Assembly: GCA_902573085.1 (NCBI GenBank)
Contig: CACGHY010000011.1
Location: forward strand, 1-36,448
Source: an uncultured Candidatus Poseidoniales archaeon
GTDB lineage: Archaea; Thermoplasmatota; Poseidoniia; Poseidoniales; Thalassarchaeaceae
DNA: 36,448 nucleotides
Direction: 5' to 3'
Positions 2 to 5,413 of the stretch are shown here, piece after piece. Below the pieces are notes generated by a model. It did no database searches. It worked only from the letters and a program-made list of their open reading frames with translations, and was not told the origin of the DNA. The position numbers and the translations under genes were made by a program. Position 1 is the stretch's first letter. The number at the start of each line of letters is the position of its first letter.

Positions 2-1027
2 GGTCTAACCGTGGAGAGTCTAGATCCCCTGTTCTCGGGTCTTAGAGAAAATTTAGCACCTCTGATCAAGGAAATAGTGGACAGATCCGAAGGTCCAGAC
101 CTCTCATGGGTCACAGAAAACACATGGAGTCAGGCAGCACAAGAAGATTTGAGTCAAAGTGTTTCTGAGGCAATAGGTTTCGACTTCGGAGCAGGAAGGA
201 GGGATCTGTCTACTCACCCTTTCTGTGGAGGTCCCAATCCCGACGACGTGCGGTGGACAACCCGCTATAGTGTTGAAGAGCCGTTCGGATCGCTGTTTGG
301 TTCTATGCATGAAACAGGTCACGGCACGTACGAACAGGGTAGACCTAGAGAGTTGGACTTCCAACCAGCAGGTAAAGCGAACGGTCTTGGAATTCACGAG
401 AGTCAAAGTCGCCTCTGGGAGAATCAGATAGGAAGGTCCAGGGAATTTTGTGAATGGTCCATCCCGTTGTGGAGGAAGTTCTTCCCGGAAAATATGAACG
501 AAGTCAGTGCAGAGCAACTGTGGCAGGCAGTTAATTTGGTGAAGCCTGGGTTAATTCGGGTGGATGCTGATGAGGCTACATACAATCTACACATCATGAT
601 CAGGTATGAGATCGAAAAGCAGCTCATTGCTGGCGAGATAGACGTAGATGATCTGCCGGATGCCTGGGATGAAATGTACCATGAATACTTGGGAATTAGA
701 GCTCCCAACAGTACACTGGGGGTTCTTCAGGATATTCACTGGTCAATGGGTGCAATCGGCTACTTCCCGACGTATACTCTAGGGAATCTGTATGCTGCTC
801 AACTACTCGAGTCAGCCAGAAAGGACCTCCAGGAACATGATACTCATATCAGGGAAGGGAACTTCTCCCCGTTACTAGAATGGATGAGGGATAATGTTCA
901 CTCAAGGGGGAGTGTGCTGGAGCCAGCGGAGCTAATCAAGGAAGCAACCGGACAGTACCCTTCTCCTGATGCTTTCATTAGATACCTCGGTTCTAAGGTT
1001 GAGAGGCTTTACGGCATTAGTGCTTAG
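2..1027 (+). CDS. M32 family metallocarboxypeptidase, C-terminal part (cut by window edge)
   Basis: This is the C-terminal two thirds of a thermostable carboxypeptidase 1 (Taq carboxypeptidase, peptidase family M32), a cytoplasmic zinc enzyme that removes C-terminal residues from peptides. Counting from the GTG at position 11, the zinc motif HETGH lies at residues 100-104 and the third-ligand motif HESQSR at about 129-134. Other family signatures are HPF, DVRWTTRY, IRVDADE and the late GVLQDIHW. M32 proteins are usually near 500 residues with HEXXH near residue 260. Only about 338 residues are present and the frame is open to the left edge, so roughly 160 residues are missing and the GTG at 11 is not a real start. 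The next gene follows after 16 bases, suggesting co-transcription. The family call is firm; the true start lies outside the window. Confidence 0.93.
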   Translation, partial: GLTVESLDPLFSGLRENLAPLIKEIVDRSEGPDLSWVTENTWSQAAQEDLSQSVSEAIGFDFGAGRRDLSTHPFCGGPNPDDVRWTTRYSVEEPFGSLFGSMHETGHGTYEQGRPRELDFQPAGKANGLGIHESQSRLWENQIGRSREFCEWSIPLWRKFFPENMNEVSAEQLWQAVNLVKPGLIRVDADEATYNLHIMIRYEIEKQLIAGEIDVDDLPDAWDEMYHEYLGIRAPNSTLGVLQDIHWSMGAIGYFPTYTLGNLYAAQLLESARKDLQEHDTHIREGNFSPLLEWMRDNVHSRGSVLEPAELIKEATGQYPSPDAFIRYLGSKVERLYGISA

Positions 1028-1043
1028 AAGATCTGGAGTTCAC

Positions 1044-2129
1044 ATGACAAAATCCAATCTAATTGACTACTCCTCCCTAGTCAGGGTGATTGGGGCCGAG
1101 TGTGCCTTTGTCAGAGTCTCAGGTGAGTTACTGGTATCGGGTTCCAAATCAGGAGAAGTTGCTTGTTGGGAGTTGAGAAGTGGTAAAGAGATGTGGAGAT
1201 CTAAATTCGAAGGCCCTTGTTCCAATGCTGACTCCAACAAAGATTTCCTGTTCGTCACAGAGTCGGATAGAGTTCATGCAATTATGCTGGCCTCCGGAGA
1301 AGAGGTCTGGTGCGTTGAGCTGGAGGGTTCGAGCGATCTTGTTAGAATTTCATCGGAAGGCATTTTGGTGACTTCGTCGGTCTATAACTTCGAGATTCAG
1401 GACTATTCAGAGGGATCGATATGGAAAATTGACTATGACGGAAAAGTTAGCTGGAAGGAGGAAACGATAGGGAGAGCGTGGTCTCTTTCTGATTATCAAG
1501 GACAAGCGGTCATGGGCCTTAGTAGGCCTAAGTGCGGATATGCTATCGCATCCGAAACAGGGATTGAATATCTTGAACTGGAAGAAAAAAAGCCGGTAAC
1601 TGCTGGATGTAAATTAGACAATGGGGGGATGGTTTTCGGGCATAGCAACGGATCGGTGACTGAGATAAATGGAGGAGTCTGCTCTACAGTCAGCGTAGGA
1701 GACTCTGCCATCTGCGCAATGGATTGCAGGAGTAGTTGGGTCGTGGGGCTAGATTCTGGAGTGATTTCGACCAGCGAATCAGTAGGATCTTGGAACATAA
1801 AGTCCCTCGAATCAATTGACGTAGTTTCGTATGGTCCTTCGTTGGAAGGTAGCACAGGCATATGGTACTCATCTTGGAACGGCAAAGGAAGAGTTTTCCT
1901 AGTTGACTCTTTAGTTGGTGGTCTTCAGCTCGAGCTTTCTCACGGATCTAGAATAGTAACCTGTTTTGCTACGGAGGATTCGATTTGTTTTGGAGATATT
2001 AGCGGGTGCATACATGTAATCGAAGAGGAAGTTCTCCGGCGTCGTTTCGGAAGGCTCCCCGAAAAAGAAATCGAGTCTGAGAGAGAAGCGGAGCTTAGGA
2101 AGAAAATACGTGCACTGCGAGGTGCCTAA
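1044..2129 (+). CDS. PQQ/WD-like beta-propeller repeat protein
   Basis: A 361-residue protein made almost entirely of short beta-propeller repeats. Recurring units resemble PQQ-like or WD repeats, for example LLVSGSKSGEVACWELRSG and VHAIMLASGEEVWCVELEG, where a strand ending in a G-x-x-x-W/A pattern is followed by a turn and 'G.E.W'. There is no signal peptide or membrane segment, so it is probably a cytoplasmic scaffold. The last 35 residues are highly charged and helical (ending EAELRKKIRALRGA). I chose the ATG at 1044 over the upstream in-frame ATG at 969: 969 would overlap the peptidase by 59 bases, while 1044 is preceded by a GGAG Shine-Dalgarno-like element at a suitable distance. It sits 16 bases after the M32 peptidase and probably shares its transcript. 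The specific function is unknown. Confidence 0.75.
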   Translation: MTKSNLIDYSSLVRVIGAECAFVRVSGELLVSGSKSGEVACWELRSGKEMWRSKFEGPCSNADSNKDFLFVTESDRVHAIMLASGEEVWCVELEGSSDLVRISSEGILVTSSVYNFEIQDYSEGSIWKIDYDGKVSWKEETIGRAWSLSDYQGQAVMGLSRPKCGYAIASETGIEYLELEEKKPVTAGCKLDNGGMVFGHSNGSVTEINGGVCSTVSVGDSAICAMDCRSSWVVGLDSGVISTSESVGSWNIKSLESIDVVSYGPSLEGSTGIWYSSWNGKGRVFLVDSLVGGLQLELSHGSRIVTCFATEDSICFGDISGCIHVIEEEVLRRRFGRLPEKEIESEREAELRKKIRALRGA

Positions 2130-2175
2130 TTTGCAGTGGAAAAACACACCAATATACCCCTATTTCCAGTGAACT

Positions 2176-2186: not shown

Positions 2187-2204
2187 GACGAAATGTTTAT
2201 GAGC

Positions 2205-2800
2205 CATCCATCACCCTGTGTTCTTTGCCGCTCCGGGGGAGTGGTGTGAGGGCGCTTCGGCGTGACTCGCGGGCCACAAAAACCGAGCCCCGAATCCGGG
2301 GCGGTAGAACCGATTTCCGAAAGGAAATCGGGGATAGGCCAGAGCGTCTGTGGACGCAAAGGCCACGGCGAATAAATCGGACAAACTGGAGGTAACGAAG
2401 GGGAGAGCGAGTTATAAGCTGAAGAGATACACATGCGTAGGGGGATGAGAATGAACCTGGGTCATGTAGGTGGGGAACGAGGCGGAGATAACCAGACGCA
2501 AGGAAGGGGAGGTAAACCTAAGGAAACACCAGGCAACGAGGGCGGGGAGACCCGTGGAGGAGCCAGTATCGAGACGTGAAAGGAAATGCGGAGACGAAGT
2601 ACCAGAAGCGGATACGGCAAATGAAAGGGAGATCTATCATTTGTCGGAAAATGACAAAGGAAGAGCGTGAAGTTCCGGAGTCGTCTACCCGGGGAATCCC
2701 GGGCCTTCGGGCCCGGGTGACACCCGGACCCTGCGGAGTTAACAGGGGGGGAAGCTCCCCCATGTGCGGAACCCCCTGTTGCTCCCACCTGACATCGGCC
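2205..2800 (+). ncRNA. candidate large structured non-coding RNA, class unknown
   Basis: The 700-base gap between the propeller gene and the fumarase has no credible protein gene but is dense in stable hairpins. Those seen: 2252-2263 (UUCG loop); 2287-2302 (6-bp stem); 2310-2331 (9-bp stem, GAAA loop); 2337-2364 (nested stems, GGCC outside, GCGTC inside); 2543-2554 (GAGA loop); 2640-2658; 2698-2717 (8-bp stem, UUCG loop); and 2741-2780 (9-bp outer stem). GNRA and C(UUCG)G loops appear in functional form only when the plus strand is read, which sets the strand. A 7-of-8 pairing between 2243-2250 and 2782-2789 could close the molecule. The middle (2390-2670) is strongly purine-rich. I looked for RNase P and SRP RNA core motifs and did not find them. 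The ends are approximate. Confidence 0.6.
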
Positions 2801-2833
2801 CAAGAATTTTCTAAACACTAGTGGAACTATTGC

Positions 2834-4435
2834 TTATTCGCTTGGACCGGTCATATCACTTGGTCTGACCCATTCTTCGAACTGCTCTTTACTCACCAAT
2901 TCAAGCTCAATAGCACTTTGTCTGAGAGTTAGGCCTTTCTCATGGGCATTTTTGGCAATCTTGGCCGCATTGTCGTATCCGATGTGTGGATTTAGAGCGG
3001 TTACTAACATTAATGATTTCTCGAGGTGTTCGGTAATCTTTGCTTCGTTTGCACTTAGTCCGAGTATGCAATTTTCTGAGAAAGATACACAACTATCTGA
3101 TAGCAATCTTGTGCTATGCAGTAGATTATGTATCATCATCGGCTTGAAGACATTCAATTCGAAGTTTCCCTGACTTCCACCGATGGAGATGGCAACATGG
3201 TTCCCCATTACTTGGCAACAGACCATAGTCATGGCCTCAGATTGTGTTGGATTTACCTTGCCGGGCATAATACTAGAGCCAGGTTCGTTCGCTGGCAGGG
3301 ATAGTTCTCCAAAACCACATCGAGGTCCGGATCCAAGCCATCTCACATCATTGGCTATCTTCATCAACGAGGCAGATAGTGTATTTAGAGCGCCCGAAGC
3401 AGCTACTATGGCATCGTGAGCCGCTAATTGTGCGAACTTGTTCTCTGCACTGATAAATGGTAGGCCGGTCTTTTCTGATATTTTTTTGGCGACTATTTCT
3501 GCAAAATCTGGATGAGTGTTGAGACCGGTTCCAACTGCTGTCCCTCCTAGTGCTATTTCGTACAAATCGTTCAGAGTCGTTTCAATTCTTACTAAATCTG
3601 CATCCAACATCGACACGTAAGCACCGAACTCCTGTCCGAGGGTTAGCGGAACGGCATCCATGAGGTGGGTTCGACCGATTTTGACTATGTCGGAGAATTC
3701 TGCCTCCTTTTCCGCTAGAGAATGTCGAAGTTTCATTACTGAAGGAATTAATTGATGTTGTATTTCTTCGGCTGCAGCGATGTGCATTGCTGTTGGAAAC
3801 GTATCATTACTAGACTGCGCTTTGTTTACATGATCATTTGGATGTACTGGAGACTTACTGCCCAGCTTTCCTCCAGAAATCTCAATTGCCCTATTCGCAA
3901 CAACCTCGTTCGCGTTCATGTTTGTCTGAGTCCCAGAACCCGTCTGCCAAATTCTGAGAGGGAAATGAGAGTCTAGACTCCCAGAAATTACCTCTTCGCA
4001 TGCTTCTGAAACTAGTTTCCCAATATCATCTTCTAGCACTCCGAGCTCGACATTTGTCTCCGCAGCTGCCTGCTTTAGTATTCCAAATGCACGGATCAAA
4101 GATCTGGGCATTTTATCTTCTCCTATATCGAAGTTGATCAGGGATCTTGCCGTTTGCGCCCCATAGTATCTATCGGCTGGAACTTCTATCTCCCCCATCG
4201 TATCTATCTCAACCCTAACTGTGAGGTTGGTCTTGTTCGGTTTGCGAGGCTCTATCTCACCGGAGTTGGTCTTATTGATAATAGCTCCATAAAGGGAGTT
4301 TTCAATCATTTTAGAAATAGTGGCAGATCTTCCTTCCCCTCTACCCTTACCTACTCTAGCGTCCAATCTTCTTGCAATATCCTCAGGAATACTGACTGAA
4401 ATTATTCTACGATCGCCGACTCGATGCTTTGCCAT
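2834..4435 (-). CDS. fumC: class II fumarate hydratase with N-terminal ribbon-helix-helix domain
   Basis: Catalyses reversible hydration of fumarate to malate in the TCA cycle. The enzyme part (about residues 75-533) is a standard class II fumarase: it opens with [20 protein letters not shown], carries [20 protein letters not shown], TGxNTHPDF, and the catalytic SS loop [13 protein letters not shown] near residue 389. Family members are about 460 residues; this one is 533. The extra N-terminus (about residues 9-50) reads as a ribbon-helix-helix DNA-binding domain: the strand RRIISVSIP, helix [11 protein letters not shown], then [16 protein letters not shown], followed by a polar linker. The only in-frame start-type codons between the first ATG and the fumarase core are a TTG and an ATG inside the RHH region, and an ATG inside the conserved DTMG motif, so a separate fumarase start is unlikely. 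Its own promoter lies immediately upstream. The fumarase call is very firm; the RHH call is strong by pattern. Confidence 0.95.
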
Positions 4436-5014: not shown

Positions 5015-5413
5015 CTATGCAACTGTTGAGCCGGGCAGGGTCCCTTCTGGGGCCTCCAACAGTCTAACTGTACCATCTGAATCTAGAGCACCCAAGACAA
5101 GGAATTGGGAAACGAAGCCCGTGGGTAGTGTCTTCTCTCCTAGGTTGATAGCGGCTACTACGATTCTTCCAATTAATTCCGAACGGGAGTAGTTTGTAAT
5201 CTGAGCTGAGCTCCATAATCTTCCAACTATTGGTCCAAAATTTACTCTAATCTTGTAAGAAGGCTTTTTCATCTCTGGGAATTCCTGAACATCATCAATT
5301 ATTCCGGTTCTCATATCTAAAGAAAGAAATTCTCCAATTCCGATATACTCCTTTCTCTCTAGTTTGGAAGGGTGGTATGGCAGATTTTTTTGATCGATAT
5401 CGTGCTGTCCCAT
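5015..5413 (-). CDS. tRNA-binding OB-fold domain protein (CsaA/EMAP-II type)
   Basis: A 132-residue protein matching the stand-alone tRNA-binding OB-fold family, related to CsaA, the C-terminal domain of some methionyl-tRNA synthetases and Arc1p. Visible family features are LDMRTGIIDDVQEFPEMKKP near the start (the usual 'vd.RVG.I..v..hP.a.kL' strand), YKIRVNFG, a central SELIGRIVVAAINLG and the late FVSQFLVLGA. It probably binds tRNA-like structures or acts as a chaperone; the sequence alone does not decide between these. It begins 4 bases after the pyrE stop codon, so the two are almost certainly co-transcribed and translationally coupled. Confidence 0.85.
   Translation of the reverse strand: MGQHDIDQKNLPYHPSKLERKEYIGIGEFLSLDMRTGIIDDVQEFPEMKKPSYKIRVNFGPIVGRLWSSAQITNYSRSELIGRIVVAAINLGEKTLPTGFVSQFLVLGALDSDGTVRLLEAPEGTLPGSTVA

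Follow-up and report, generated by a model that had tools for sequence, protein, structure and literature searches.

A large structured noncoding RNA gene conserved in marine group II archaea, with a 5' core that recurs in marine tailed viruses

In the genome of an uncultured marine group II archaeon (Candidatus Poseidoniales, Thalassarchaeaceae), 704 bases separate the stop codons of a beta-propeller gene and a fumarase gene, which raises the question of what this gap contains. A first-pass annotation, made from the letters alone, had placed a large structured RNA at 2205-2800. Very few large structured RNAs are known from archaea beyond rRNA, RNase P RNA and SRP RNA. Here, the whole of contig 11 (GCA_902573085.1, CACGHY010000011.1; 36,448 nucleotides, referred to as the window) from this 1.16 Mb, 63% complete genome was analyzed together with homologous loci. 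The gap was shown to hold a single-copy gene for a structured noncoding RNA of about 580 nt, which has conserved promoter motifs of its own, has been conserved by descent among the marine group II archaea, and matches no Rfam family (Table 1). The location given first stands, and only the ends shift slightly, to about 2222-2805. The start, probably at ~2222-2226, was estimated from the spacing to the TATA box at 2194-2201, and the end from the limit of conservation, the 3' domain stopping at ~2791, and from the T-rich tract that comes next.

Table 1. Features of the RNA locus and its neighbors (positions in the window).
Feature	Position	Strand	Remarks
PQQ-type beta-propeller gene	969-2129	+	
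Upstream palindrome, probable transcription-factor site	2133-2171	+	Arms GCAGTGGAAAA (2133-2143) and ATTTCCAGTG (2162-2171); conserved in both families
Archaeal BRE/TATA promoter CGAAATGTTTATG	2189-2201	+	GAAANNTTTAT-like box in nearly all homologues
Large structured noncoding RNA	2222-2805	+	Both ends estimated
5' core module	2225-2276	+	Hairpin A (2231-2234:2238-2241) and hairpin B (2242-2276, UUCG loop)
Hairpin C	2282-2305	+	Compensatory C-G/U-A at 2290:2299 in 7 genus sequences; further compensatory pairs 2287:2302, 2292:2297
Hairpin D, GAAA loop	2310-2331	+	2310:2331 and 2313:2328 significant in tree-aware two-set test
Hairpin E, UGUG loop	2338-2363	+	
Stem F around GA-rich module 1 (2386-2401, CU-GGA-G-GUAA-C-GAA-GG)	2366-2421	+	2378:2409 and 2387:2400 covary
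Hairpin I	2432-2466	+	Adjacent covarying pairs 2432:2466, 2433:2465, 2434:2464
GA-rich module 2 (CC-AGA-C-GCAA-G-GAA-GG)	2492-2507	+	2493:2506 covaries
Hairpin J, GAGA loop	2542-2555	+	Double changes at two pairs
Stem K, terminal GAGA hairpin 2589-2596	2562-2618	+	C-G/G-C flips in terminal pairs
Hairpins L, M, N	2623-2676	+	Double changes in L and N (2661:2674 A-U/G-C); M one-sided only
Stem H1 with UUCG-capped H2 (2698-2705:2710-2717)	2689-2727	+	2699:2716 and 2700:2715 compensatory
3'-terminal long hairpin H3, C-rich apical loop CCCCCAU	2735-2785	+	2746:2775 and 2749:2772 significant in two-set test
Fumarase gene	2834-4435	-	Convergent to the RNA

That these roughly 600 bases lack a credible protein was borne out. 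On both strands, the longest runs without a stop codon are no different from those in shuffled DNA, and indels among the homologues break the frames, so that no open frame is retained across them and a protein-coding gene was rejected. Within the window, none of 4227 Rfam models matched at gathering score, and neither a tRNA nor a tmRNA was found. A permissive Rfam scan of the region gave no match below E 0.1, and 12 homologous loci compared with Rfam gave nothing at E 0.05. The covariance models of archaeal RNase P RNA (RF00373) and SRP RNA (RF01857) did not match the window either, and the true genes lie elsewhere in the same genome, at G000:C9:14087-14378 (243.6 bits) and G000:C1:81531-81843 (117.5 bits), respectively. 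The region therefore replaces neither, in agreement with the annotation, and shares with both the character of a long, housekeeping-type archaeal RNA, with no detectable similarity. It is also not a 5' leader, because the downstream fumarase gene is convergent. A divergent member of a known RNA family, be it RNase P RNA, SRP RNA, a riboswitch or a leader, would fit the housekeeping-like size and promoter, but with both genes strongly scored elsewhere and no Rfam match for the region or its homologues this reading is hardly conceivable. OLE, ROOL and GOLLD were likewise rejected as identities, with no Rfam match in the window and the 12 homologous loci.

The RNA appears to be transcribed from its own promoter, composed of a conserved BRE/TATA element and an upstream palindrome. 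In nearly all homologues, and likewise in the viral copies described below, the TATA-type box keeps a constant distance of about 25-30 nt to the conserved 5' motif that follows it. The palindrome (GTGGAAA / TTTCC) is located 20-60 bp upstream of this box. The genome contains the pattern AGTGGAAA-N12..26-TTTCC at two places, this one and, by chance, one within an aroA-like coding gene; the pattern is absent 5' of the RNase P RNA and SRP RNA genes. A role as regulon element was rejected, since the sole other genomic match lies within a coding gene. Such a palindrome is unusual for an archaeal promoter, and it is conserved order-wide and unique in the genome outside coding sequence. This suggests that a dedicated activator may act at the palindrome.

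The position of the gene is equally constant. The usual order, M32 peptidase, propeller, RNA and reversed fumarase, was observed in nearly all fetched loci from two families. The same slot is occupied by the weak matches in the genera g10, g12, f2-g7 and f2-g5, for which the synteny serves as an independent check. Since the RNA lies directly between propeller and fumarase in most genomes, it could be taken as a structured 3' UTR belonging to the propeller mRNA or as an antisense regulator of fumarase. However, this is very improbable: besides the conserved promoter motifs of the RNA, in g22 further sequence with a gene is present between RNA and fumarase, in the loci L015 and L017 the DNA just 3' of the intact RNA no longer resembles the fumarase end, and the 5' core is found at unrelated loci and in viruses. 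The propeller protein was also considered as an obligate partner of the RNA and rejected, since in g6 (L179) the propeller gene is kept with its stop abutting the fumarase stop and the RNA absent in between.

The fold is specific for the plus strand. In comparison to dinucleotide shuffles, the folding z is -3.4 on the plus and -2.4 on the minus strand, and the plus strand is the more negative one in 14 of 16 homologues tested, the remaining two (L024, L139) being equal within error. GNRA-capped hairpins of 4 bp are present 1-12 times per copy on the plus strand (none in one copy) and 0-1 times on the minus strand, as expected from the strand-specific caps that had been noticed at first sight. 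Where at least eight stable hairpins had been proposed, about 16 stem-loops could be placed, and compensatory changes in the alignment back most of them. Within the 5' core, the sequence UUGCYGCUYC-N3-GRAGUGGYGUG is near-invariant throughout the order, and at the other end of the RNA the ends of H3, GCGGAG...CUCCCA, are retained into the sister family. The middle part contains two GA-rich modules, which might be stacks of sheared G.A pairs. Their closing pairs flip between the genus sequences, with pair 2391:2396 of module 1 being G-C in 15 and C-G in six sequences, and pair 2497:2502 of module 2 being C-G in 14 and G-C in seven. In some species the GA-rich module GAGAACYGGACGCAAGGAAGGGGAAGG is duplicated inside the RNA (L022 and L023 of g1, L125 of g11), and therefore the middle domain seems to grow through duplicated modules.

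The nested model comprises 25 helices with 123 pairs and was evaluated on 21 genus sequences, in which 98.1% of the cells are paired. Both-sided changes were found at 29 of the 123 pairs, in 85 cells, compared to means of 13 pairs and 24 cells after shuffling. None of 500 shuffles matched the observed double-change counts, and slid models gave 2-5 pairs. For the order-wide 5' stems, 29 of 34 pairs show double changes, in 340 cells versus 81 after shuffling, in an alignment fitted to the structure. Because this fit leans toward the structure, a tree-aware G-test with APC was added on sequence-only alignments of 63 copies. Here, the top three of about 22,000 column pairs are all pairs of the model, and pair 2249:2267 of hairpin B displays the strongest covariation of all pairs in this unbiased test. 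Among the proposed pairs alone, E<0.05 is reached by six, which lie in helices B, C, D and H3. An all-pairs test restricted to the genus has no power. Taken over these alignments, the compensatory base-pair changes exceed chance.

Not every pairing suggested for this RNA withstood these data. A long-range closure of 2243-2250 with 2782-2789, proposed in the first-pass annotation, is unsupported, because it conflicts with the covarying hairpin B and with helix H3 (GGAGU 2735-2739 : GCUCC 2781-2785), to which these bases belong. The long-range pairings of 2214-2236 with 2492-2523 predicted by RNAalifold were left out of the model, because changes in L024/L025 break them and leave the local hairpin A intact. 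Upon inspection, the 5' GGGGGAG was also rejected as a partner of the apical CUCCCCC loop, since other genera do not keep this pairing.

How widespread is the RNA? By BLAST, 25 of the 28 genus genomes, nearly all of which are incomplete, carry the element. Between members of the genus, identity is 83-99% in the 5' and 3' domains and goes down to about 70% in the fumarase DNA; the RNA is better conserved than the adjoining coding DNA. Two covariance models were built separately, R1 for the 3' domain (2687-2791) and R2 for the 5' domain (2225-2334), and matched in 99 and 126 of 293 genomes of the order, respectively. Their matches co-locate on one contig and the same strand, with 436-1257 nt from end to end. 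The order-wide model R3 matched in 154 of 340 genomes of the class, the carriers belonging to family f1 (11 genera: g1, g8-g17) and to the genera g5, g7 and g22 of the sister family f2, apart from two doubtful matches in g2 and g4. In the rest of the phylum (about 330 genomes) nothing credible was found outside the order; the 12 weak matches there (E 4e-4 to 0.1) are below chance expectation and were discarded.

A search for the 5' motif with 2 mismatches in g2, g3, g4 and g6 gave few, scattered matches and no copy where one would be expected. In the fumarase tree, g2, g3 and g6 stand together and g4 separately. The simplest reading is that the RNA was present in the ancestor of the order and was then lost once or twice, and alternatively the RNA of these four genera may have diverged beyond detection. 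The marine group II genera without the RNA show that it is not essential throughout the order. Its length differs strongly as well: in g10 (L160, L163, L164) the RNA measures about 1250 nt and carries 8-12 GNRA-capped hairpins, which is about three times the length in g14 (436-445 nt). Apparent copies of >900 nt in L127, L131 and L137 were set aside, as their low base fractions are read as N runs.

The 5' core also recurs away from this slot. A second, short RNA with this core (G018:C32 = L194:1990-2099; R3 E 1.1e-8) is present with its own TATA box at an unrelated locus, which no other genome of the family carries. Furthermore, an exact pattern search of IMG/VR led to IMGVR_UViG_3300007514_000005 (L227:1561-1665), which is matched by R3 with 30.8 bits. 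Two relatives of this virus, L231 and L232, were identified via their DUF932 protein without reference to the RNA and contain the core at the corresponding place (L232:8966-9029, L231:260-323; 25.0 bits, E 5.7e-6). In these copies, hairpin A has A-U instead of C-G as its third pair, and a TATA box precedes the core here too. In these two lineages of marine tailed viruses the core follows a TATA box and, with a DUF932 gene nearby, opens a noncoding stretch of 400-650 nt. What viral and chromosomal RNA demonstrably have in common is the ~55-60 nt core alone; the remainder of the viral noncoding region might be the same RNA. The large terminase of L232 was assigned to phrog_38 (E 1.7e-37), and among the named virus records that it matches are Natrialba and Halobacterium viruses. 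The host would presumably be marine group II. A third relative (L230/L234) gave no match, 53 further virus contigs chosen by terminase yielded zero additional carriers, and the pattern matches L228 and L236-L256 were dismissed as coding-like, the model scoring nothing there. No tRNAs are present in the viral loci scanned. The intergenic stretches of L227 and L234 are rich in the short repeat AAATTTGTAGC.

What might such an RNA do? The chances are about even that it is a stable trans-acting RNA, whose GNRA- and UUCG-capped hairpins and purine-rich GA modules would fold compactly, probably together with protein. The upstream palindrome and the TATA box would drive its transcription. The near-invariant 5' core with hairpins A and B, a few bases past the presumed start, would recruit a partner; it is assigned this role because only the core recurs, in the short second RNA as well as where the viral noncoding stretches begin. 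The fast-changing middle could serve as a length-variable scaffold, and protection of the end would fall to the long GC-rich 3' hairpin. As a whole, this explanation, the RNA gene together with its proposed particle role, is regarded as probable. An extension of it is put forward tentatively, and we lean somewhat against it: the RNA would be a new large machine ancestral to marine group II, of which tailed viruses infecting these archaea captured the 5' module, with host and virus versions competing or cooperating.

A catalytic RNA, that is, a ribozyme or the RNA of an unfamiliar enzyme, would account for the elaborate fold, the near-invariant short segments and the GNRA tetraloops suited to tertiary packing. 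However, the Rfam scans revealed no known catalytic core, the middle lets the length range between 436 and 1257 nt among genera, and some genera are missing the RNA altogether, which leaves catalysis an improbable alternative to the scaffold.

Among known systems, the RNA most resembles the ornate large RNAs OLE, ROOL and GOLLD, and by sequence and structure it belongs to none of them. OLE RNA of bacteria is described in two reports as an RNA of about 600 nt with an elaborate fold, whose biochemical function is not exactly known (PMC9723947, PMC12054373). Size, elaborate fold, cellular location and conservation by descent are shared with the RNA described here, which in contrast is archaeal, has no Rfam OLE match and shows no OLE-type protein neighborhood adjacent to it. 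ROOL and GOLLD are large, tetraloop-rich RNAs of which the function is not known and which are also found in viruses (PMC12286853). The same features hold here, with the core present in viruses. However, ROOL and GOLLD are phage-borne and often near tRNA islands, whereas the marine group II RNA is a fixed chromosomal gene without an Rfam match to them, and its viral loci, where scanned, are devoid of tRNAs.

A closer candidate by lineage is Tan1 (Thalassoarchaea ncRNA 1), a marine group II ncRNA that is reported as 229 nt long, with a complex predicted structure, an abundant transcript and no class assigned (PMC5069720). It is possible, if unlikely, that Tan1 is the RNA described here, seen earlier as a fragment. 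Tan1 comes from the same archaea, its homologues (75-79% identity) being confined to Thalassoarchaea metagenomes; it ranks fifth in RNA-seq, matched no named family and is reported beside RNase P and SRP RNA (PMC5069720). On the other hand, its 229 nt compare to about 580 nt here, and Tan1 could just as well be of the shorter paralogue type found in L194, or another RNA altogether. Should Tan1 be a fragment of the present RNA, expression has already been shown and part of the novelty is gone, leaving the size, the structure, the order-wide spread and the viral copies as new.

The first-pass annotation had raised a possible new class of large ornate archaeal RNA, to be checked by an Rfam scan, a search for homologues and a covariation test. 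All three were carried out and favor this possibility, with no family at gathering score, homologues across the marine group II order and compensatory changes above those of shuffles. With the caveat that Tan1 may be a fragment of the same RNA, an order-wide RNA that is absent from Rfam, has its core in viruses and belongs to archaea among the most abundant of the surface ocean would be a new class. The fixed gene slot, the defined promoter and the clean losses are landmarks, and the function is directly testable in metatranscriptomes and in vitro.

Elsewhere in the window, downstream of a cyclophilin gene, 5018-5413 on the minus strand encodes a small protein with a weak match to tRNA_bind (PF01588), just below the curated cut-off.
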